Source of the DNA: Saccoglossus kowalevskii
Lineage: Eukaryota; Hemichordata; Enteropneusta; Harrimaniidae
Direction of reading: 5' to 3'
Length of the DNA: 22,798 nt
NCBI RefSeq assembly: GCF_000003605.2
Contig: NW_003128868.1
Location: 301,921 to 324,718 of the forward strand
The position numbers and the translations under genes were made by a program. Below are positions 1,721 through 21,742 of the stretch, one piece after another (within the stretch, counting starts at the first letter, position 1; each line of letters opens with the position of its first letter). The notes under the pieces were generated by a model. It did no database searches. It was not told the DNA's origin and worked only from the letters and a program-made list of their open reading frames with translations.

Positions 1721-2730
1721 GACTTTACCTTTACAATCGTGGTTGCATTTTGAGATCAAATCAGAATAACTTACATCGATGTGAACATTTCTTGCACTGT
1801 TGTACTTATAAACTGTGTCTATCCAAAATACATCAGTGGAAATAAGAAAAATGCTTCCAAAACATTAAGTTCTCTTGTGAATGTTTCACATTCCTTTCAG
1901 ACATCAACAACAAACAAATACAACCACAGAATCATATCCGTACTACTGTGAAATATAGTGAAATATGGACAGACCCGCAAATAAGCAAGACGCGAGAATT
2001 GAACCACCACATGATAGGGTCTAACTCACAATCAACACGAATGGTATTGATATACAGTATTTAGAACTATTATTTTGTATTTAGTGTTAGCTCATCAATA
2101 TTTATTTGATGGTGATGACCACTGTGCGAATTTAGTGTATGTCATACACCTGTCACACATGCAATATACAATGGAGGTCCAATCTCTGATATACACGTCA
2201 ACACATAGATGGCTATGGTTTTAAATTTATAACTTAGACCAGGTATATTCAAAGAAACACCCGGAAGGACGCGGATATGAATTCATAACATAGGATAGGC
2301 ATTGTTATACAAAGAAATTCATACATGACTAAGGTTTAATAATTTACAATATTAATAAAGTGGTGTTAGACAATGAAACGCATCGATGGCCGTGGTTTTA
2401 ATTTGCAGTGATATGCAATTGTTAGAGATGAAATCAATGAAAGAACTAAACAAGGCGCCTGCTCTATAAGGATAACATGTCCTCTTTTAGTGCACAATAT
2501 CTTAGAACCCGAATAACTTAGAATAAGTGTTTTTTGTTTAAGTCCAAACCTCGCATTCAAGAAAATCTGTCTCAAATAAAAATAATAACGCATTCGTCAC
2601 ATATCTATTGAATCATTTATTATTTAATTCATTCTAATAAATTCTACTTATCATCCTACACCGCAAAAGCATGCATAACGTACTAGTTGTATACGATCTG
2701 TAAAAAAAAAGAGAAAATATATTATCACGC

Positions 2731-2733
<3 letters not shown>
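1721..2733. other. Intergenic, weak internal repeat only
   Basis: No gene recognised. Two stretches about 178 bases apart resemble one another: ATAGATGGCTATGGTTTTAA near 2205 and ATCGATGGCCGTGGTTTTAA near 2381. This could be an old degenerate duplication. A TTTATT near 2617 would read AATAAA on the minus strand and is a distant poly(A) candidate for the gene ending at 3165. Confidence 0.4.

Positions 2734-2804
<71 letters not shown>
2734..2804. repeat. TA dinucleotide microsatellite
   Basis: About 35 uninterrupted TA units. With the array near 1.68 kb it is the second long TA tract downstream of the LamG gene. Tracts of this kind can extrude as cruciforms and are often collapsed in assemblies. 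Confidence 0.95.
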
Positions 2805-2807
<3 letters not shown>

Positions 2808-2944
2808 GCAAAATGTTATGTTGTGTTCTTAATATCTAATCAACACGTGATTCAATAACAATAATTGTTGTCCTCTCGCGTAGTTCCATTGCATATGTAT
2901 CTATAATCACAAATATTCTACATGTACATCCATATGCGATATAT

Positions 2945-3109
2945 TTAAAGCGGGAGGGTCGTCACCTGCGCACGCGCGGTAATTGAGGCCCAAGTGGCGA
3001 TAACAACACATGCTAAAACGCAAAGGCTCATGGGTAGACACTTGTTTGTAAACAATGAAACGCTGTGGCCATCTGACGCATGCGCAGGTGACGACTTCCC
3101 CCGCTTTAA
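2945..3109. mobile_element. TTAA-flanked MITE, copy 1
   Basis: The 157-base element (2949-3105) is bounded by TTAA at 2945-2948 and 3106-3109. Its terminal inverted repeats are about 30 bases: the left begins AGCGGGAGGGTCGTCACCTG and the complement of the right begins AGCGGGGGAAGTCGTCACCT. The interior has no coding capacity. A second copy lies at 18846-19016 in the opposite orientation and aligns over the whole length, which marks this as a mobile family rather than a chance palindrome. TTAA target duplication is typical of piggyBac, but the end is not the usual CCC start of piggyBac. Because the end is itself palindromic (TTTAAA), a TA target cannot be excluded. It lies 56 bases downstream of the LamG stop codon, probably inside the 3' UTR. 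Confidence 0.85.
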
Positions 3110-3164
3110 AAGTTGGCAAAATATATTCGCAAAAAAAAAAAACAATACGTGTTACCTTTAGATA

Positions 3165-6100
3165 CTAAGATGGTGGAGCGTTTGGACAGCCGCCGTCTGG
3201 TTGAGCGCTCTTAATTTCAAACAAGTTGAGTGCATGGTCGTAGATCTGGAGGCACTTAAAATACCCTTTGTAAGCATTGCCTGCAGGGTCACTGCCAATT
3301 ACTGCCTTCACACCGGTATCTAAATTCATGGTACCAAAGTCTTCGGAAACAGCCTCTACCTGGTCTATGTAGAATTTTGCGTTTCCAGATTGGTAATCGT
3401 AAGTGAACGCGATGTCATGCCATTCCACGGGTTGAATAGACTTCTGCTTGCTATCCAAGTTTACTTCCATGTCACTATCTCTGTCTTTAAGTGTGATTAG
3501 AAGACTGCTGAAGCGATTGCGATAAATACGTACTGCTAGGGTATCGTCCGCCGCCAGGAAGGAGAACACCATACCACGGTTTGATCTGCCGAACTTCACA
3601 CGAGCCAGTATACTGATGGAGTACTCAGCGTTGATTGTGTTGGGAATCTCCATGTAACCATTCACAAAATAGTAAGCCCCGCTTCCATCGTCTTCGGTTG
3701 CGTCGTATGAGATGCCGTTGTCGGGTACATCAATATCGTTACCGTTACCCGATTTATCGATTGCGTCGCCCATTAGTGGCCATAAACCAACCAGTCCTTC
3801 AGGAGCAGGGATCACTTCAGAGAGGGAAACAAACGATAATCATAATTAATAGGCAGTTTTCAGCAGCCAACTGGATTGTCCTCTGCATATACTAGAACAG
3901 TAAATATACTGCATATTTATCTTACCTTCTGGTGCCTCTGTTACATCTGGTGGTAGCTCCCCACCCCCTGAAGAAACACATGCAAAATATTAGTTCAATA
4001 CTTTGGAAGAAGAAAAACTTCCTCCAAATCTATGGCACATTAGCAACTCAGAGGATGAAATATATTGACCACCCAAAAAAAATACTTTCAAATTGTCAAC
4101 CCTGATTAAACAAATCAGCTATGAAATAGAACACACTCATTGTCAGCAAATGTACATTTCACGTCAATGTCATGGTATCGTTAAAAATATACCAGGCCAT
4201 ATATAGTCTGCAAGCTTGTGTATCTAAATCGAGACCCATATTCTAGTGTATAATCTTAAAAAAAAAACAGTTTAGCCAAAACCACTTGTTGCCTTTTTTT
4301 CATTTTCAAGGGAATGTGTTCTGACTGTTTCTGTAATTCGCAGTGGTGGCGCCATTCAACATATGCTTCACTTAGCTGTGTTTCTGCTACCATCTTAGAC
4401 ACAGCTAAGAACAAACAAACATATTTCAGTTTGTTTTTACAATTTCAAGAGAACACAAGATGCGAGAAACTGAATGTAGCGCAAAAAAATATATACTTAT
4501 GACACAAAACTAATAAGTGGTAATAAGAGGTAAAGATTTGGCAATCCTATTGTTATTGTTGCGCAAAGTTTGAAAAATTACACAGAAAAAAACTTGAAAA
4601 ACAGGAGTACAATGCCATTGATAGAGTGATAGAGCTAAAATAAAATTGAAACAGATGAAAAGTAGTATACAAATGGTGCAAACTTTGTAGTCAAAGGAAA
4701 TGATCGAAATCTGTTTGTGTTGATAAATATTAATTTCCCCACAGTCCAGTGCGCTCTACTAATAGAAATCACAATATTTAGGGCGCGACTTTTGCCGCCG
4801 GTGACTCCTTCGATACCTTCATGCGTAGCGCGACGACTACCGCCCTTTAACCAATCAAAAGGACATTATTGTACATCTCGTATGTATATGACTGACAGAC
4901 TGATTGATCAAACCAATGACACTCAAAACCTTCATAATGGTGGCCATTCTTATGACAGACAGAATAAACCCAAGCCTTGAATACATAATTTATCTTTTGG
5001 AATTATAACTGTGGAAATCAATATATCGCTTGAAATTCAAAATGATCGACTTTAGGATTGCTGGGAAAAAATGGCAACAAGTGATTTTGAGTTAAATAGA
5101 TCAAAATTTATGTTAACAGAAATGTTCTAAGAATTATTCAAAAATACATATGACGTTCACAACCTAACAGAGTAACACCACTACTAGATGTAAACCTCAT
5201 ACATACGAAAACGATATGAAAAAGTAATTGTTCAAGAGTACATACAAAACAAGGATGCTATTTATGTCAAAAACGGTGTGAGTACGCCGTCTAATGAAAT
5301 AGATCAGTGTGTTAGTTTACGGCAGTGGCAGATAACACGTACAATCAAATAAACCGTCCAATCAACTGACATATATTAATATTCAAACTAATTGCCAATG
5401 ACGTAACGCGTATTCGATGAGTCTCTTCAATCGATTTACCCGGCAACTAGGTTTGAGCGTATTCTACTACCGGGTGGGATCATATTGGTGGTCGGCTTAG
5501 ACTTGTCGGACCTCACATGATAGATAAACCGGCCGATTCGAAATTTGCTTCACAATGAGTAATTTGTATTTTGTTTAAATCAGATATACTAGACTTCTCA
5601 GCTTCATGATTTATCAAACCTAAACTAAGGCACATATAAACACATATATTGTGACATGATTCTCAAAAGACTCTTATTGTGACATTATTAAATCATGTTA
5701 CCCTGATTGAACATATGTTATATTAAATAAGAAATATATATAAATACTTACCATTCTCCTCCGGTTCTATTACTTCAATGGTCAGAAGCAACGAAGAGAA
5801 GACAAACCAACATCAAAGAGCAGTGCAAATAACGAACAAATGCAAACAACTATTAAAATGATTATAGGTTTTAAATATTGAACTCTTATTTATTGTACAA
5901 TATTTAACTGTTTTCTTAGTATGAACGAAGCAGCATTTCGTGGAAGTGTAATCTCGAAAATCATATTTAAAAGAATGTAAATATAACGTTAGGCTTACCG
6001 ACGTCCGTTCCGTCGCCGGTTGAATCGTAATCGCAGCCGTCCGGGGCAGCGATTTCCGGCAAACCAGATTGCTGTCCATCGAACGTGTTGATATCATCTG

Positions 6101-6548
6101 AAATAATTAAATGTAAATGGTGTGCGTCTATATATTGTATAGAGCGTTCTAATATGGGATGGCATTCAAGATGAGAGTGGTTTACTGCCGGGACCACATA
6201 TATATATTAAATAATTTAATGAAATTAAACAAAAAAATGTTATTGAATTGTTGGCCTGACATGGTGTTGGATGTACGCAACCTGAGGATCTATCCACGCG
6301 GCCAGGAGTTCAACAAAATGGATGTAAGATCATTACTTACCGGTGCCTGATAAGCAGTCCTCGGTACCGGCGCATGCTTTCAAAGCAGCGATGTGTTGCT
6401 TGAGAATTGAGATATCATTCACCTGATACTTAACATACTTCGATAAGTGGTACAGAGCGCATTTAACAGCAGGGTCGTCCGTCAGCGACATTCCACATAG
6501 CACGGGTGTGACCACAAAGACAACGAGTACGGTGATTCTAGATAACAT
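3165..6548 (-). CDS. Secreted protein with C-terminal LamG-like (Laminin_G_3) domain, five exons
   Basis: My model joins 6548-6341, 6097-5999, 5772-5752, 3967-3926 and 3814-3165 (1020 nt, 339 residues). Every junction is GT-AG and phase 1. I chose the ATG at 6548 because the frame extending upstream of it has only a TTG. Residues 1-18 or 19 form a signal peptide (MLSRITVLVVFVVTPVLC). Residues 20-69 are a mainly helical segment with C30, C59 and C65 that I do not recognise. Residues 70-130 are an acidic, Pro/Gly-rich linker with C91. Residues 131-328 form a LamG jelly roll: GLVGLWPL at the start, WHDIAFTYDY at 255-264, FYIDQVEAV, then GYFKCLQIYDHAL at 307-319. C311 and C333 probably pair. Such domains bind glycans or proteins outside the cell, but no ligand can be read here. 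Confidence is high for the domain and good for the exons; exon 3 (21 nt) is the least certain. Confidence 0.85.
4371..4436. repeat. Two adjacent hairpins in LamG intron 4
   Basis: The first has perfect 10-base arms, CTTAGCTGTG (4371-4380) and CACAGCTAAG (4400-4409). The second has 8-base arms, AAACAAAC (4413-4420) and GTTTGTTT (4429-4436). They lie in the large intron between exons 3 and 4. They may be a remnant of a small repeat or nothing functional. Confidence 0.4.
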
Positions 6549-8690
6549 TTTAAGCTTAAAAAAAGACAAAACAAAAGTTAAGAAATTGTATTTTGTGATT
6601 CAGACTCGTAATTAAAGGTAGTAGAGGCATACCCTATGTCTCGCAATGTCAATTTCGTCAATATAAAAAACAAAAAAAAATATACGGAAAAGTTTTTTGG
6701 TTGAGTGTTTCACAGGTGACAGCTCGAAAATTGAAGGTAAAGAACGCATCGCATGCGCTGTCGACTTAATACGCTCCCGCAAACTTCACCTTACTTTTCG
6801 TCAAAAAAATAAATGTTATCTACTGTAGTGTCTCCGTCGAAATAAAAATCATCCGGATGATGACGGTATTTTGTTTAGAAAATATCGATATGTGGTTAAA
6901 TTAATTAATTAAAGTGAAATCGACATTAATAATTATATTAATATATAGAATATTTGTTCAATTTGGTAAAATTTTTCGTGAGTGTGTTTGTTCTCACATC
7001 GACGTTGATTTAATAATAAATACATTTATATTGGGCGTTCCAATATTGCCATCCGTGCAAACATAGTAATATTGATCTCCGTTATTCTTCATCACCTTAC
7101 ACCTGTTGATTTCCCGAGGCATAAATAAAAATATTATATACATATACGGTTGTATTTAGCAACATGTACTACTTCCGTAAATGTTACGCACAATCTGAAA
7201 CTTAAAATATGTCCTAGACAAATAATACACATGATGTCTTTAAAAGTTCAAAGACGCATAACGCTGTCTCGCCATAATTTCATTAGCTAATAAGGAATCA
7301 TTCTAGTTATGAAAATTAATTTCAAAAATATTTCAAAAATGAAAATTTTCCATGACATTTTCCTTTTTCTTGAAAACCCATAATGACAAAACCACGAATA
7401 AGATAATAACGTTAGCTATACTATTTAATTCCACCCGCACGCTCTTTAAAAACACACGTGCGTCATGTGTACGAACAGCATGAGCCTGAGTGATCTTGAT
7501 AGTATGTTCTGTAATAAAAAAGCTCTTGTTTTTCTCATCTTCTCCTTGATTGATTTCAGCGTAACCCTAATCTTCATTATTAGCTAAATCACATTGTCAT
7601 GTATTTGACGTCATTCGGTGATCTCCGCGTCACGATGTAATGGAAGGCCTGTCTGATCCATGTTTGGCATTAGTAATTACTTCAAATATCATTTTAACAA
7701 GCGACACTGTGTAAACCGGTAATATGACTATAATTACTAATTAATTCTCCAAATAATTGGAATTTTCCGTAATCGATATTTTTTTATCAATTACAGAATG
7801 GTTGCATGCACCTGGCGGAGACATTAGAATCACACGTACATCGTCATGGTGATATGAATATTTTTGCAATATCATGTCATAATTAAATATATTCGTACAA
7901 TCATACATAACACGTTCGTATCATATTCGCACTCTTCCACTGTTCGTAACAGTCAGAAATTTGATACGGTACTAGTGTGTAGTCTTAACCATGGTATTCG
8001 CGAGATATGCGCCTTGCCATTCCCCGAACGTCGCCGAGCAGTTCCGTATGTAGCGTCGGCTGTCATTGCGTTTTCAATGTTTTAGGGTGCCATCATGTCT
8101 CCAAATCACTTGTTTAACGACCAAATGACTATATTACAAAAGATTATATTTTCACTAAGATTAGTCTGAGATGTTGTTTCCTTCATCGCCATTTAGTCTT
8201 TTACTTTTTGGATTTATCGGACGACTAATATACGCATATTACCTTAACGTTGGAGCGAACATCTACCATAATTATGTACTACCCTGCTTTGTTCTTTCTC
8301 TTCTTCATAGGTCGTTTTGCTTTACGCATTCAGAGACGGTCATTTTTCCATAATTATCTTACCCGAACATATACTGATAAAAAAATGTTTGTGACAACCG
8401 AACTATTTATTAATGTCTGCGAGATAATGTTACTGGTGTTAAATGCCTCACAAGATGAACCAAAACTGGGAGGAAACAAAGTAGTGTTTACGTATAATAA
8501 TTGAGAGATAAACATAAACCACTAATTTCATAAGCTACGTGGTTCATGAGAACCATGACTACTAGGTTTTGTATGTGTATATTTACAATAATGTAGGTTA
8601 TTTGTGTTGTCCGTGATTCAGCCTGAGTATTTCCATCTAGTCAATGTGGGTTCGTGTGCACTGCAGACAATTTCGAGCTGACTATTCTAG
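6549..8690. other. Intergenic, upstream of the LamG gene
   Basis: About 2.1 kb, very AT-rich. It should hold the promoter and 5' UTR of the LamG gene, but I see no convincing TATA box on the minus strand. Overlapping open frames at 7864-8504 (plus) are short and hydrophobic, show no motif and are probably chance. A small palindrome, TGGTTCATGAGAACCA, lies near 8542. Confidence 0.4.
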
Positions 8691-8765
8691 CTAGTATGGC
8701 TGAGTGGTTAACGCGTTCGCCTGCGTTAGCGAGGCGCTACACCGAGTGTCAAGTTCCAGTTACGT
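8691..8765 (+). repeat. tRNA-like remnant, probable SINE head
   Basis: TGGCTGAGTGG at 8697-8707 fits a type II (Ser/Leu) tRNA D-arm and an internal A box. GTTAACGCG follows, then an anticodon-arm-like hairpin CGCCT/AGGCG with a 9-base loop. The B-box position (8751-8760) reads AAGTTCCAGT instead of GGTTCGANTCC. The oversized loop and weak B box argue against a working tRNA and favour a tRNA-derived SINE or tRNA pseudogene. I could not define the SINE body or tail. Confidence 0.55.
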
Positions 8766-11085
8766 GTTGTTATGTGTTATGCACGTTTGTATTTTTCACT
8801 CAAACAGATTTTCTAACATCTCCGTTCGTCTTGATTTCTGGCGAATATCGAGTATCCGCGCCTAACAGGCTAGAACACAAAGCCTAAAACCAGTTTATAC
8901 AGTTGATATATAGTAGATAATATTTGGTGATAATATATATTCAAAATACCTTGACTTTTTTAATGATGGCTTTTCTCTGGCATCTAAGGAAATGATTAAA
9001 CAACAAACATATAGGCAGAACACAATAACGTATGAACACGTACAACAACTACAAAATGAAATCACTAAAAGAGACGTATGTGAGCACTAGATAGTAAGCA
9101 TATGAAATGATTTGAATAGTTTATTTCCCTGTGTTTCTGTAGTTCCATGGCGGAATATTTAGCGTATAACACATAACAAATACGTCGTTTTAGCACCGAC
9201 GTAAATTTAACAACGGTGTTATTTTTATCGTGTGAAAATTACACTGGTGTAAATATGGCGGTTTTTACACTAGCATAAATTATGTGACCAGAGTCCGCGC
9301 TCAAAAAGAAAAATACTTGTGAATAAGCACAGTGGCATAAACGCCCTCTACCAGGAATTTGTGTAAACTCGATGACTGGATCACCAGATCTTGTCAACTC
9401 AAGGCCCCAGAGAACTATAGAGGGCTTCAACGTGAGATGACAATCCCTGTGTATCACAGAATTGTTCTGGATCAAAATGAAAGGAGAGGGGCTATAGAGC
9501 TATAGCAGCGATTCGCTCATCCATGTATAATTAAATAGTCAGGCTGTCAAGTATAGATATAATGGAATTACTATTGTTTTATTTCTCCAATTTAATATCC
9601 AGAACTTTTGCCGGTGAGTTTTCATAACACCACGAGTCCATACAACCTACTTTGTTAACCATGTCAAAATTGTACTTATCATTTAGTGTTATACCATGTA
9701 GCCGTAGATCGAGGTAATCATAAATCAGTATGGGCTTATTTTGATATGTTGACAATTTACAAGACACTGTATACCTTTTTGACAATTGGCTTCAGACAGG
9801 TCCAGGATTTTGACACCCTGGTCTCACACTGGTAATATTTTTTTACAAAGTGGATGAATACCATATATGTATTATTGACGCTGCTTTTTTTGAATTTGAA
9901 AAATACATACACGGCACGCAACGCTCAATTTTGGATCCGATTTGTTTATATTCAGAACACCATCCGAACTTTAGAGGGCGTGATACAGTTTGCGGATAAA
10001 CGGGTATTTAAACAGTGCCATCTATTGGCCGACAACTAATATTTATTATATTTAGTCGCACTTAAACAATTGCTATAAAAAAGGTGAAATAGTTGCATTA
10101 CCTGTGAAAATTAAATCATCATAAAATCCCCCCCCCCCTCACCAGCCACACAATTATACATGATATAACGTAGCATAAAACGTATACAATTTATAACGAG
10201 AAATAATTAAAATAGTTGCGTAGCTAAAATAAATACTGCAAACATTCGATACGTGGCAATCAAAATCAGCATTTTCTAAATGTTGGTTATTGATATCTGT
10301 ACATTAAATACACTACTGAGATGATGTTATATCGACACCCAATATCAAACGTTGAATTTTCACCACGACAACAATTTTTACGCGTTCCATTGCAAGGAAC
10401 TGAGGTAATCTAAATCTACAGTAGATATTATAATTTGTAATGCCCCAATCTCTCTCCGTTGTTATTAATGAACTGACATAATATACAAAACATAAGCTCG
10501 GCTGGAAACATTTATTTTATTTGGGAGTCGAATAGTGATTTCTGATGGTTCCAGGCTACAATTGAAAACACTGTCAAATAATAGCCCGCACCGACAATCA
10601 GTTGAACAAACATTACAAGAGGGAGGGCAGGGGTAGCTGGTATAGGTTACAGGAAATAAAAACGGCATTTTACGTTTTTACAGGAAATAAAATAAAAGTT
10701 CCATTTACAGATAAACAAAATTCCTCATTACATTTTTATAGTATTTTTGATAATTTGTGTTTACGAATCAAAAATGTCTACGAATTTACGTTTTTTTATT
10801 TATTTAAATTACATTTTTACGAAAATAAAAAAAAATTGATTACAGCTTACTAAAATACTCCTTACCGACCCGCTTACAAGAAAAAAGACGTCTTGAACAG
10901 TTATCATGCAGAATCGGTAAGTTGGACATTGTGTTTAAATTACCCACCCTCCCACCACCCTACTAAACAGAGCTTCACACTCTAGCCGACTGCTGCAATA
11001 AATTTTGCATGTTCCACTAAATACGGGCTAGCTAAGTAGTAAACATATCAGTCCCCCTAAGTCGGTCATAGATGAATCTAAGGGG
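8766..11085. other. Intergenic between LamG and sialyltransferase-like genes
   Basis: No gene recognised in about 2.3 kb. A palindromic motif TTACACTGGTGTAA lies near 9239. An 8-base inverted pair, GCCCTCTA (9343-9350) and TAGAGGGC (9418-9425), brackets 67 bases, and a C10 tract lies near 10129. The short open frames here carry no motif. Confidence 0.4.
10795..10804 (-). terminator. Candidate poly(A) signal for the sialyltransferase-like gene
   Basis: On the minus strand this reads AATAAATAAA, two overlapping AATAAA hexamers about 280 bases past the stop codon at 11086. Position and strand fit, but the region is AT-rich enough for chance hits and no transcript evidence exists here. Confidence 0.4.
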
Positions 11086-13224
11086 TCAGGCGTGACACGT
11101 ATTATGGACGTGTATTATGCCAGCATGTTGCAGATCCATGAATACTTCCTTCATCGAAGTTGCTCCTGGTCCCGTCAATATGTTCTTAACAATGTCGCCT
11201 TCGTCTGACGTTTTTTTCTCGTGTATCGGCGCTCCATAAACGTGTATTGTATCACAGAGTAGCACGGCCAACGTCACCAGTGTCAGGTCCGATGTTGAAT
11301 TGGCAATCTTCCAATATCTGGAACACGAGAAATGGGTTGTTTTAAAAGCGGTGAGAAACAACGAATGAACACAATTCATGTCTGGTGACGTTACCAAGAT
11401 ATCAGTGGAGCATACTGGATCGTTTTTTTTTTATTTATTTATTGGAACAAATGACTGCTCAAGACGAAATCAGAATGAGCGGGTCTGTGTATTCAGGACT
11501 CAGAAGTTCAGTTTCGTCCAACAGCGTGTGATATGCCTCCTAGAATTAACCAAATGCTAGAAATATATAGTAATTTCCCGGTGTTTGATGTATATATGGA
11601 AAATCCCCATAATAATACTAAAATATGAACATGAACGGGCTGTACTTACTCGCTCACTCGCACTGAGAACGGTTTCAGGGGCGAGTAAGCCATCTGGAGG
11701 TGAACTTGGTATCGTTCTCGAAGCCGAAGTGTCATAAAGCGAATGTTGTTTCTCTCGCGTGAAGTCCTTTCCAGTCTCCATGGATACAACAAAATCGTAC
11801 CGTTTAACTTTTGCACGGTGGAAAAAAGTTTAAGGTTAGACGACTTTCGGGCTCCTCTCCTCGGGTTTTCAGATACGAAATCGTATAACGATTGTAATAG
11901 TGTGCTGTCCAATAACGCCAGGTCGGTTTTAAAACCAATGTCATTAGTCTTATCATCCTGTAGCCCTGTTAAAGTCCTCCTAATCACGAAAGGTGAAAGT
12001 TCAATTTGGTCACCACATCGGGAATGAATCAGGGCTTTCTCGCTGAGTACTACGGAACACGACTTTGATTGGCGTAGAGGGCGCGTGGCATTTGCGAGAC
12101 GTTTAAATTCTGGATCGTGTTTAACATATTTGTCCTGGTAATCTTGGAAAAAGTGCATATATTTTGGAGTTGTGTCATTTTTAAACACCCGTATGTCTGC
12201 ATCAATGACGATATTGCCGGATATGTTTTTTCTGCAATGAACAAAAACAGACAATAGCATATTTCTGAACTTGAACTTGATCATATTGAAATAATCTTCA
12301 ACTTAATATACTCGTCATATTCAGAATAGTTTCTATGACAACGTTGTTGAAGTGTGACCGCATAGTGATGATGGCTCATCCAGTTGATAAAAAGATATTC
12401 CTATGTTCCACTATATGAACATATCCTCGATCGCACGTGCATTAAACCGATGAAACTATTATCAGGAAGTGCGTGCCAGGGAATCTTTAATGGCACATTT
12501 ATTGTCTGACATACTCACAATAAAATGCCAATGAAAGAAGGGAGCTAAATGTCTAGTTGTATAACAAATAACAACTGAGCAATAATGATTTGGGTAAAAT
12601 TTGGGTATCACATACACTACTCTTTTTGCCATACCTGAGTAGCAGTAACTGATTAAGAACCACTTTCTGATCTTTGTCAGGAAATCGTCCACCCCGATGT
12701 ATTACGTCATGGTGAAAGCGAGAATTGTTCGACTTTTTTTCCTTGTTTTCCAACTTGAATGACGTGAATCCGCTAATACCAGGACTGTGTGTGAAACAAA
12801 TAATTGCGATCATTTATAAAAACATTTATACTTAATATACGACAATAATATAATGCTACCTTTCGGCTTGGTATCGATCGTACATACATGTACAAATCCT
12901 CGATAATTACCGAATATATCCGAAACAACAAATGTTACTCTATAGTAAACTAGTGTTTACTTTAAACAGTAAACTCGTTACAATTTTCAGTTCTAAAACA
13001 CAGTGCAAAATACAAAATATGCGATATTCAGGGGGGTCATAATCGTGACCAAGAGCAAATAGGTTTATGAAACCCCACCTTTTAGCAATCGGCGATTTGT
13101 TGTGCTCATTGACATCGGATAAGTCGAATATCCCAAAATTAACTGTGACCATGACAACAGCGAAGGCAAGGGGAAGAATGCAGAAACATTTGTTTCGTCT
13201 TGCCCATCTCATAAGTCTCGCCAT
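11086..13224 (-). CDS. ST8-type sialyltransferase-like protein, catalytic motifs degenerate
   Basis: Four exons: 13224-13079, 12784-12635, 12231-11650 and 11317-11086 (1110 nt, 369 residues), all phase 2 and GT-AG. The first donor (AAG/GTGGGG) is the weakest. Residues 1-12 are a basic tail (MARLMRWARRNK) and 13-33 a signal anchor, giving a type II Golgi topology; the stem runs to about 100. Sialyl motif L starts at C157 (SCSVVLSEKALIHSRCGDQI) and continues FVIRRTLTGL (180-189) and DIGFKTDLALLD. LNGTILLYP (241-249) and YWKIANSTSDLTLVTLAVLLC (294-314) match the ST8SIA order, and the length matches the usual 340-380. Cysteines 157, 171, 314 and 367 match the two family disulfides. Missing: the two motif-L Asn (S162, T185), the STG of motif S (STS), GFWPF, the motif III HYYD and the motif VS His. 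No stop or frameshift breaks it, so it reads as a maintained pseudoenzyme or a strongly altered enzyme. N-glycosylation sequons: 68, 101, 117, 146, 242, 299. Confidence 0.85.
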
Positions 13225-19225: not shown

Positions 19226-21742
19226 TCACTGTTCCTTCTTTCTGTTCAATTTGATATTAGTTGGTTTGCAACAAATTTTAAAGATTAGTCTGATCACTTG
19301 CTTTAAGATAATAATGGCAATGGCCACTACGGCTAGTAAAAATAAGGCAATATCGAGGAGATAATACTGCAGGAAATTCAATTGGAGGGATGCTGGTTTT
19401 ATGTGATCACCGCCAAACTTCAAAATGTGTTCAATCCAAAATACAGCTGCATCTCCTGGAGGCATTGGAGTATCTCTCTGGATACTGGATAATTTAGCGG
19501 CGTTCTCTTTGTACCTACCAAAAATAATTTGTACTATAAATTATTATCTGTGCAATCTTCAAGTTGTACTTTTTTAAAATGACCCATTGAGTTACAATTT
19601 TAATTGTAACATATTATTGATTAGCAGTCTGTCAGTAAGAGTCCCTTACCTAGGGTCTTCGATTACTTGTTTCACAGCATTGTAGACATCATCTTCTGTA
19701 GAAGATTTCAAATCTATAACAATTGCCATCCCTTGGCCGACCAGTCTTCTAGTATTTTCAAACTGATCTCCGTATATCGGCACGCCAATAAAAGGCACTG
19801 CATGATATATAGCCTCGTTTACACCATTGATACCTCCATGGCCTATGAATGCTTTGGTATTTGGGTGACCTATTGAACATATGGGGTAAGTAAGAACAAT
19901 TATTACATATGTTTGAACAAATAGCAAGGTCGATATTCTGAATATGTATATACTATAACACATGTGTATTTATTTTAAAATTTATTTGTTTTAAGGTAGC
20001 AACAGGGAAAACCTGGTCACATGTTTTTTGTTTATTAATCGGTATATCATGTTATAGACGTAAATCGGAGAGAAAACTGAGCACAACCAGCTGACTTCCA
20101 TTTGTCATTTAAAATGCAAACACTTATATAATTCAAATGATTGACATATTGTGAACAATGGCATTGCGGTAATCGGTTGTCGCTCCAACTTGGGTGTTTT
20201 CTTTTGTAAATAAAACCCCATCTTATCAGTTCCCATTATATTGTCAGTGTCAACAGTTTCCATATATACACATTCATTATTGGAAGAGCGTACGCACAAC
20301 TAACATTTATTTTTTTGTCAAGGCAAAGCAACATTATTTTAACATGAGAAAGACGAGAGGTCGTTTAAACAAGTATTTTGAACCTTTGAGTGAAGAGAAA
20401 CGGGTCCGATTTAGTGAGTACAGCCGGAAACTAAATCCTGTTTCAGATGACTTAGAAGACGACACTTTATGAGAACCTGTCACAGCGAAATTATTTCGAA
20501 AACGCCCAATCAAATGGTTAAATCGCCGGGCAGAAATGTTGTTATTTTGACAGGGTTCAGTTAATCTCCAATCACATTACCCATATGTAAACAGTCTTTG
20601 CAAAACATGAATTAACAAATTTCTGATTATTTCAGCCTCATATATTATATGGTTTGTCATAAATATGTTTTGATTGGAGTTGCGCAAACCATCTGAACTA
20701 AACGATATGATTTCCCCTGTTGCTACATTAAACTGCAATTTACGAAAGTCGAAGAACACAAAACAAAGTATAAACTCAGTATTACAAACATCGTTATACC
20801 ACAAGGAGAAAGCACATTCTGCATATATTCCCCATCTACCATTCTGATTCACAACTACATCCCAGTGCACAGGTGGATGACTTACATCAAAATATCACAA
20901 AATAAACGACTGACAAGAAATAACAATTAACAATACAATTAACTGGCAAGCAATCTACATCACCATGCCACCATTGTGGTTTATATGAGTGATATCAGGT
21001 GATTCGAATAGCTCCATATATTTTGCACGTGTACGTTTTCTATAAGAAATGTGTCTACTTCATGGTCAGCATTGTGTGTCTTTCAATGCTTGTGTAGTCG
21101 TTGTATGTATGTCATTCACAAAAATGAAAGTATATTGACGGGATTATGTTGTTGGCTCCTTGTTGATATGTTCTCCAAACTGCTGTTCAATGTGATTACA
21201 TATATAGAGGGTGGTTATTAGATAATGTTACTATGTGTTAGTGGACCTCAATTTTGATAAATATGAAACGTGCGTACTACCTTGTACTAATATTGCTACA
21301 CAAAATACATATTTGAGATTTAGCATTTGTGCCTCCACGAACAAATACATATATTTTAGGATGTTATCAAGTATAATCTAGATAACTGGATGTCGTATAG
21401 AGGTACGTTTTGAGCGCGCTGTCACAAATTACGATTGCTGTATCATTTTGAAGGTCAGAAAGCTGCTATACTGATACAAGTAATATCGTACGGCCACTCA
21501 TGAGATATTGTCTATGTATTACCTAGGAGATCATTTTGCGGAATCCAACTGCTAAGTTTGGTGTTCTCGCCAAGTTCATTTGGTGGATTCCCAACGTATT
21601 TCATAATCACTTTCTGTGGCAATCTAGCAAACGCTCTAACAAACTTTGTTGCCTTTTCCATGTCTTCGCCGATGTTAACCTGTGAACCAAGTGTAAATAC
21701 TACAATTCCTTCTTCAGCCGATTCGACGAATTCGGTCCATTC
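19226..21742 (-). CDS. UDP-glycosyltransferase (UGT/GT1), C-terminal half; 5' exons outside the window
   Basis: Exons 21742-21523, 19869-19650 and 19514-19226 give 729 nt and 242 residues with clean GT-AG junctions (entry phase 0, then 1 and 2). The first encodes EWTEFVESAEEGIVVFTLGS to WIPQNDLL. The second carries the UGT signature: GHPNTKAFIGHGGINGVNEA, then YHAVPFIGVPIYGDQFENTR, whose HGG and DQ contact the UDP-sugar. The third begins YKENAAKLSSIQRDTPMPPG and includes AVFWIEHIL, a membrane segment (LLDIALFLLAVVAIAIIIL) and a basic tail ending KKEQ, a KKxx ER-retrieval motif. Such enzymes transfer sugar from UDP-sugar to small lipophilic acceptors in the ER lumen. This half binds the sugar donor; the acceptor-binding half was not found up to 22798, so specificity cannot be given. 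The 220-nt middle exon matches the size of the vertebrate exon covering the same residues. Confidence 0.9.
20344..20472 (+). CDS. Small charged ORF inside the UGT intron, uncertain
   Basis: A 42-codon frame with ATG: MRKTRGRLNKYFEPLSEEKR, ending SDDLEDDTL. It goes from a basic start to an acidic end and lies antisense within the UGT intron. I recognise no family. It could be an exon or transposon scrap, but chance is quite possible. Confidence 0.15.
   Translation: MRKTRGRLNKYFEPLSEEKRVRFSEYSRKLNPVSDDLEDDTL
20577..20894 (-). CDS. Unclassified open frame inside the UGT intron, uncertain
   Basis: The frame is open for 105 codons plus stop, with no ATG near its start. It begins YFDVSHPPVHWDVVVNQNGR and continues WGIYAECAFSLWYNDVCNTE, then FDFRKLQFNVATGEIISF. 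The aromatic, beta-strand-like composition looks more protein-like than most chance frames here. It matches no part of a UGT, so it is not a skipped exon of that gene. It may be the end of an inserted element or gene relic. Confidence 0.18.
   Translation of the reverse strand, partial: YFDVSHPPVHWDVVVNQNGRWGIYAECAFSLWYNDVCNTEFILCFVFFDFRKLQFNVATGEIISFSSDGLRNSNQNIFMTNHIIYEAEIIRNLLIHVLQRLFTYG

Follow-up and report, generated by a model that had tools for sequence, protein, structure and literature searches.

Can a sialyltransferase gene stay intact in a genome after the residues that bind the donor and transfer sialic acid have been lost? The question is raised by a sialyltransferase-like gene on the minus strand, at positions 11086-13224 of a 22,798-nucleotide stretch of the Saccoglossus kowalevskii genome (contig NW_003128868.1, positions 301,921 to 324,718), the whole of which we call the window. 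The original prediction, made from the DNA letters, described an unbroken protein of sialyltransferase fold without its catalytic motifs. From the comparisons given below, we consider that the gene probably encodes a maintained Golgi pseudo-sialyltransferase, in which a disulfide-braced fold would have been kept although the donor pocket and the two catalytic histidines have been lost.

Gene structure and family

The gene consists of four exons and 369 codons with a single terminal stop, and its three introns all have GT/AG ends and phase 2. The features are listed here, with a slash marking the exon boundaries.

13079..13224, minus strand: exon 1, with the ATG, the basic tail and, at about residues 14-33, the transmembrane anchor; donor AAG/GTGGGG, phase 2
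12635..12784, minus strand: exon 2, stem region; acceptor CACACAG/T, donor CAG/GTATGG, phase 2
11650..12231, minus strand: exon 3, bulk of the GT29 domain, from sialylmotif L until shortly before motif S; donor CGA/GTAAGT, phase 2
11086..11317, minus strand: exon 4, motif S through the stop codon; acceptor GTTCCAG/A
11928..12059, minus strand: altered sialylmotif L, residues 157-200, from the alignment; coordinates derived by hand from the exon table
11233..11301, minus strand: altered sialylmotif S, residues 299-321, from the alignment; coordinates derived by hand
11098..11232, minus strand: shortened tail, residues 322-366, the expected site of GFWPF, motif III (HYYD) and motif VS (H...E)
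11095..11097, minus strand: codon of Cys367, the putative partner in the ST8-specific second disulfide

An in-frame stop lies six codons upstream of the ATG in exon 1. The spliced frame had a codon score of 0.135, the two alternative frames on its strand scored -0.286 and -0.511, and those of the opposite strand -0.144 to -0.537. The uninterrupted four-exon frame of the original prediction was thus borne out by the phase-2 joins and by the codon signal. Similarly, the type II anchor was confirmed by a hydropathy peak of 2.29 at residues 15-33, behind the basic tail.

A family search with the 369-residue model had also been proposed, and in it the protein matched PF00777 (GT29) with 43.3 bits (E 3.8e-11), above the curated cut-off of 23. 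Two sequences of solved structures matched, both of human ST8SiaIII (E 2.4e-10 and 6.9e-10), which is therefore the best solved relative; the alignment to it stops at YG321. An AlphaFold2 model of exon 3 (predicted local distance difference test score 78.6, predicted template modelling score 0.77) was used in a structure search, and the top matches were GT29 structures, again with ST8SiaIII as the best. All four expected cysteines, 157, 171, 314 and 367, are present. Cys157 and Cys314 sit in invariant columns and are predicted to form the disulfide between motifs L and S, while Cys171, 14 residues past the motif L cysteine, and the C-terminal Cys367 make up the second ST8 pair, for which Cys156-Cys356 of ST8SiaIV serves as a model by analogy (PMC12682141).

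The genome holds an expansion of this family, with 135 exon-level PF00777 matches in the 572-Mb assembly (142 of 157 candidates scored). Many of them are arrayed, on contigs C2960, C50, C2109, C2071 and C4442. The protein itself found 29 matches beyond its own four exons, at 24-33% identity and with a best E of 3.6e-10; no close paralogue or second copy was seen in this genome search. For the alignment and tree we used 16 two-exon genes, 11 single-exon genes and the gene studied here, 28 genome rows in all, and ST8SIA3 as the 29th row; ST3Gal, ST6Gal and ST6GalNAc sequences were excluded. The two-exon genes came from 20 candidates, of which the second gene of locus L009 and L016 (joins failed), L018 (no exon 4 in its stretch) and the first gene of L009 (exon 3 frame interrupted by a TAG) were dropped. 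Loci L025-L028, with a different exon layout, a plus-strand gene in L011 and several clusters, among them those of C2071, C2109 and C1608, were left out, so the 28 rows represent part of the family behind the 135 matches. The interrupted L009 gene (C2960:142000-151000; frame 878-1252) is ST8-like, with a Leu by eye at the place of the VS histidine, and appears to be decaying within the array to which it belongs.

In the tree, the gene grouped with loci L014 and L021 on a very long branch, with a support of 89/80 that was not starred, and tests of narrower pairings favoured no pair. By its sequence and structure matches, its cysteine pairs and the place of its last intron, the gene is a spliced nuclear gene that probably belongs to the ST8Sia branch of GT29 in animals.

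Loss of active-site residues

In the family alignment, 34 columns were conserved, and we classed seven of them as ligand-binding or catalytic (two Asn, the Phe after YG, the His and Tyr of motif III, the His of motif VS and the Gly of STG, the last of which we presumed to belong here) and 27 as other. This classification is our own: the seven columns were chosen after the alignment had been seen, residues of hST3Gal1 were matched to columns by motif and by eye, and the 24 reference rows were selected for possessing the VS histidine. The protein retains 18 of the 34 columns, none of the seven ligand or catalytic ones and 18 of the 27 others (Fisher p 0.002, descriptive only). When the VS histidine column was removed, it still retained none of the remaining six.

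The significance of these positions comes from work on hST3Gal1, where N147 and N170 are described as contacting the phosphate of cytidine monophosphate (CMP), S268 and T269 the sialic acid and F289 the ribose, with W297 stacking on the cytidine, H299 as the acid and H316 as the base; N170A has a strong effect on kcat and KM, and N147S damages the enzyme (PMC6884586). The motif III Tyr was counted as a ligand or catalytic residue after PMC12682141.

In motif L, the changes are G161L, N162S, G164K and N185T, turning VGNSGIL into VLSEKAL and RCN into RRT, with Cys157 and Cys171 kept. The threonine at 185, already named in the original prediction, replaces an Asn found in 24 of 24 reference rows. 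Ser162 is also present as predicted, but is weak evidence for lost activity, since Asn is not universal there: Ser is also found in L015, L019 and L022, whose other motifs are complete, and in most ST3Gal5 and ST6Gal1 sequences as described in PMC6884586. In motif S, Cys314 and YG are kept. The loss of STG stood, although the reading of its replacement as STS was one column off: the ungapped alignment gives T301-S302-D303, with D303 in place of a Gly present in all 24 reference rows. The losses of GFWPF, motif III and the VS histidine were likewise evident on the family alignment. GF(W/Y)PF has lost its F and P, and I339-L340 stand where all 24 reference rows have the His and Tyr of motif III. 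The His and Glu of motif VS fall in an alignment gap; among the 28 genome rows the VS position is His in 24 and Gln in three, and this protein alone is gapped, or, counted over the 28 other rows, His in 25 (the 24 references and L014) and Gln in three. Since Cys314 and the last cysteine are closer together than usual (a spacing of 53, against 59-67 across the reference rows), the motif III/VS region has been remodelled beyond point mutation. By the alignment, neither the acid nor the base histidine has a counterpart in the protein. In addition, motif S contains a sequon, N299-S-T, at the donor loop, which, if glycosylated, could block the old pocket.

The same picture was obtained with human ST8SiaIII (ST8SIA3; PDB 5BO6-5BO9): the protein is without counterparts of N190, G302, H337-Y338 and the VS residue H354. 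These numbers are anchored on Cys162, a position which we assumed, and the spacing from it was computed. The earlier proposal that the fold was kept while the chemistry was lost is well supported by the contrast between the two classes of columns, by the four cysteines and by the matches of the exon 3 model to GT29 structures.

Maintenance, decay and other explanations

If the gene is maintained, its product would be expressed, held in the Golgi membrane by the type II anchor, unable to transfer sialic acid and kept for a non-catalytic job. The likeliest job would be that of a partner or regulator pairing with active ST8-like enzymes, or else a holder of sialylated substrates. A glycan-binding or regulatory role, as first suggested, is plausible, and we consider the partner role somewhat likelier than the glycan binder; as the segment on the acceptor side (motifs S, III and VS) has been remodelled too, a lectin using the classical pocket seems less likely. 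Engineered pST3Gal1 H302A, which is likewise a GT29 fold minus a catalytic His, is described as binding sialyl core-2 glycans, so a protein of this fold can bind without being catalytic; that protein, however, carries a single designed point mutation and belongs to another subfamily, whereas here most active-site residues have been lost naturally (PMC12274613).

The strongest alternative is that the gene was functional until recently and is now relaxed and on its way to becoming a pseudogene, without a stop or frameshift as yet. Several points favour it. The terminal branch is the longest of the 29-row tree, at about 2.2-2.4 changes per site; there is no close copy; all four motifs are altered; and the GT29 expansion does contain broken frames, such as that of L009 with its TAG.

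Against recent relaxation stand the stop-free frame, the three good splice sites and a stop codon placed two residues past the last cysteine, together with the retention of the four cysteines and of 18 of the 27 non-ligand columns. In neutral simulations at near the composition of the window, 38% of the runs were stop-free at 0.05 replacements per codon; at 0.1 there were 2.5 stops on average, and at 0.2 there were 5, with none of 60 runs stop-free. The branch of this gene is about ten times longer than 0.2 and carries no stop, therefore most of its divergence arose under frame constraint, which argues against a long decay. It does not follow that constraint continued after the catalytic residues were lost, and in this respect a recent relaxation is possible. 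Our search for orthologues covered viral contigs and prokaryote genomes, collections without animal sequences, and found no match. On balance, we think recent relaxation rather unlikely.

A second alternative is a neofunctionalised transferase or hydrolase with a rebuilt pocket, other catalytic residues and perhaps another donor. Outside animals, relatives in GT29 probably use other donors, and this explanation would agree with a family fold that is likely kept in spite of a rebuilt tail and a rebuilt loop in motif L. However, no acid/base pair can be proposed from the protein alone, both histidine counterparts, N185 and the STG Gly were lost together, and the sequon stands at the donor loop. 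We regard a new enzyme activity as improbable.

Finally, the gene model could be wrong, with a true last exon bearing intact motifs elsewhere or a faulty assembly, as might be suggested by the end of the solved-structure alignment at YG321 and by the motif S frames of L025-L027, which also cease matching near the same point; this we consider very improbable. With a C-terminal profile spanning GFWPF through the C-terminal cysteine, no frame of at least 15 residues in the window scored above 4.3 bits, against 36-73 bits for the 19 exon-4 frames of two-exon loci, so by this profile the window holds no exon restoring motifs III and VS; the tail of the gene itself scored 3.0 bits and that of L014 6.5 bits. 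On this contig, the whole-genome PF00777 search gave no further match to GT29 at an E of 0.001. The gene's own exon 4 is also missing from its matches: this search could overlook an altered exon, although it should pick up an intact one. The last codons of the tail are the family C-terminal cysteine and, two residues on, a stop, and the exon 4 acceptor lies at the same intron place and phase (2) before motif S as in the two-exon ST8-like paralogues. A wrong last exon is thus unlikely by these sequence criteria.

Related genes and other features

We also examined relatives in the same genome for similar losses. Locus L014 (C50:70000-72500, minus strand) resembles the gene in its intron place and phase before motif S, an intact open reading frame, kept cysteines, a shortened tail and the loss of STG (here GDA) and of motif III. 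It differs in keeping 23 of the 34 columns, an N in the RCN position and, close to that of VS, a His, and is 23% identical to our protein; a possible anchor frame lies upstream. Locus L021 (C1594:598000-605500; frames 1322-1927 and 4775-5158), which groups with L014, has Gln at the place of the VS histidine and TSEG in motif S, and keeps 32 of the 34 columns.

The tandem pair L013a/b (L013, C50:28500-38499; genes 1975-3198 and 7458-8851) also has Gln (CAA) at the VS histidine and is otherwise nearly motif-complete, L013a keeping 33 of the 34 columns. The ratio of nonsynonymous to synonymous substitution rates between the two was 0.17 (95% bootstrap 0.12-0.25; 269 codons), and in four pairs with the VS histidine it was 0.17-0.48. 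The L013 pair is under purifying selection; in this genome, selection can therefore keep an ST8-like protein even when the canonical base is missing. Tentatively, the gene studied here, L014, L021 and perhaps L013a/b might form a small hemichordate lineage of natural pseudo-sialyltransferases that no longer sialylate but bind sialylated glycans or act as regulators of sialylation, and so correspond in nature to the lectins engineered from sialyltransferases; we see this as a possibility rather than the expected case.

A close described parallel is ST8Sia EX of amphioxus and sea urchin, likewise divergent, duplicated ST8Sia genes of invertebrate deuterostomes. Compared by description only, these appear to have the motifs typical of the family and might be active, whereas our protein is without them; a C-terminal motif is reported for all ST8Sia sequences surveyed there (PMC2564942). 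No natural GT29 pseudoenzyme was recognisable in the literature searched by titles and the beginnings of abstracts, which is weak evidence of absence.

The window contains three further features on the minus strand. Two frames at 19226-19969 belong to a gene of the uridine diphosphate-glucuronosyltransferase type (PF00201, E 7.5e-24 and 7.7e-21), and a 224-residue frame at 3165-3839 encodes a Laminin_G_3 or concanavalin A-like domain (PF13385, E 1.4e-13). A short cysteine-bearing frame at 6333-6599 has a signal-peptide-like start and no Pfam match. Elsewhere in the assembly, in COX1, COX2 and ND1 of the mitochondrial contig L060 (C4830), ATA occupies positions of a usual Ile and AAA those of a usual Lys. 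ATA as Ile is common to echinoderms and hemichordates, and AAA as Asn is an echinoderm change (PMC2697986); the codons of the contig suggest a hemichordate-like code and, provided that the contig comes from the same animal, a hemichordate. Two points speak against this reading: COX1 lies on the opposite strand to ND1 and COX2, an arrangement not usual in hemichordates, and ATA stands for Ile in some other animal groups as well.

If selection keeps the gene, the sialyltransferase fold would be reusable without catalysis, and the protein may offer a natural scaffold for binders of sialoglycans. The catalytic histidine has been lost in several ST8-like genes with intact open reading frames in one genome, which makes the question testable across hemichordate species.
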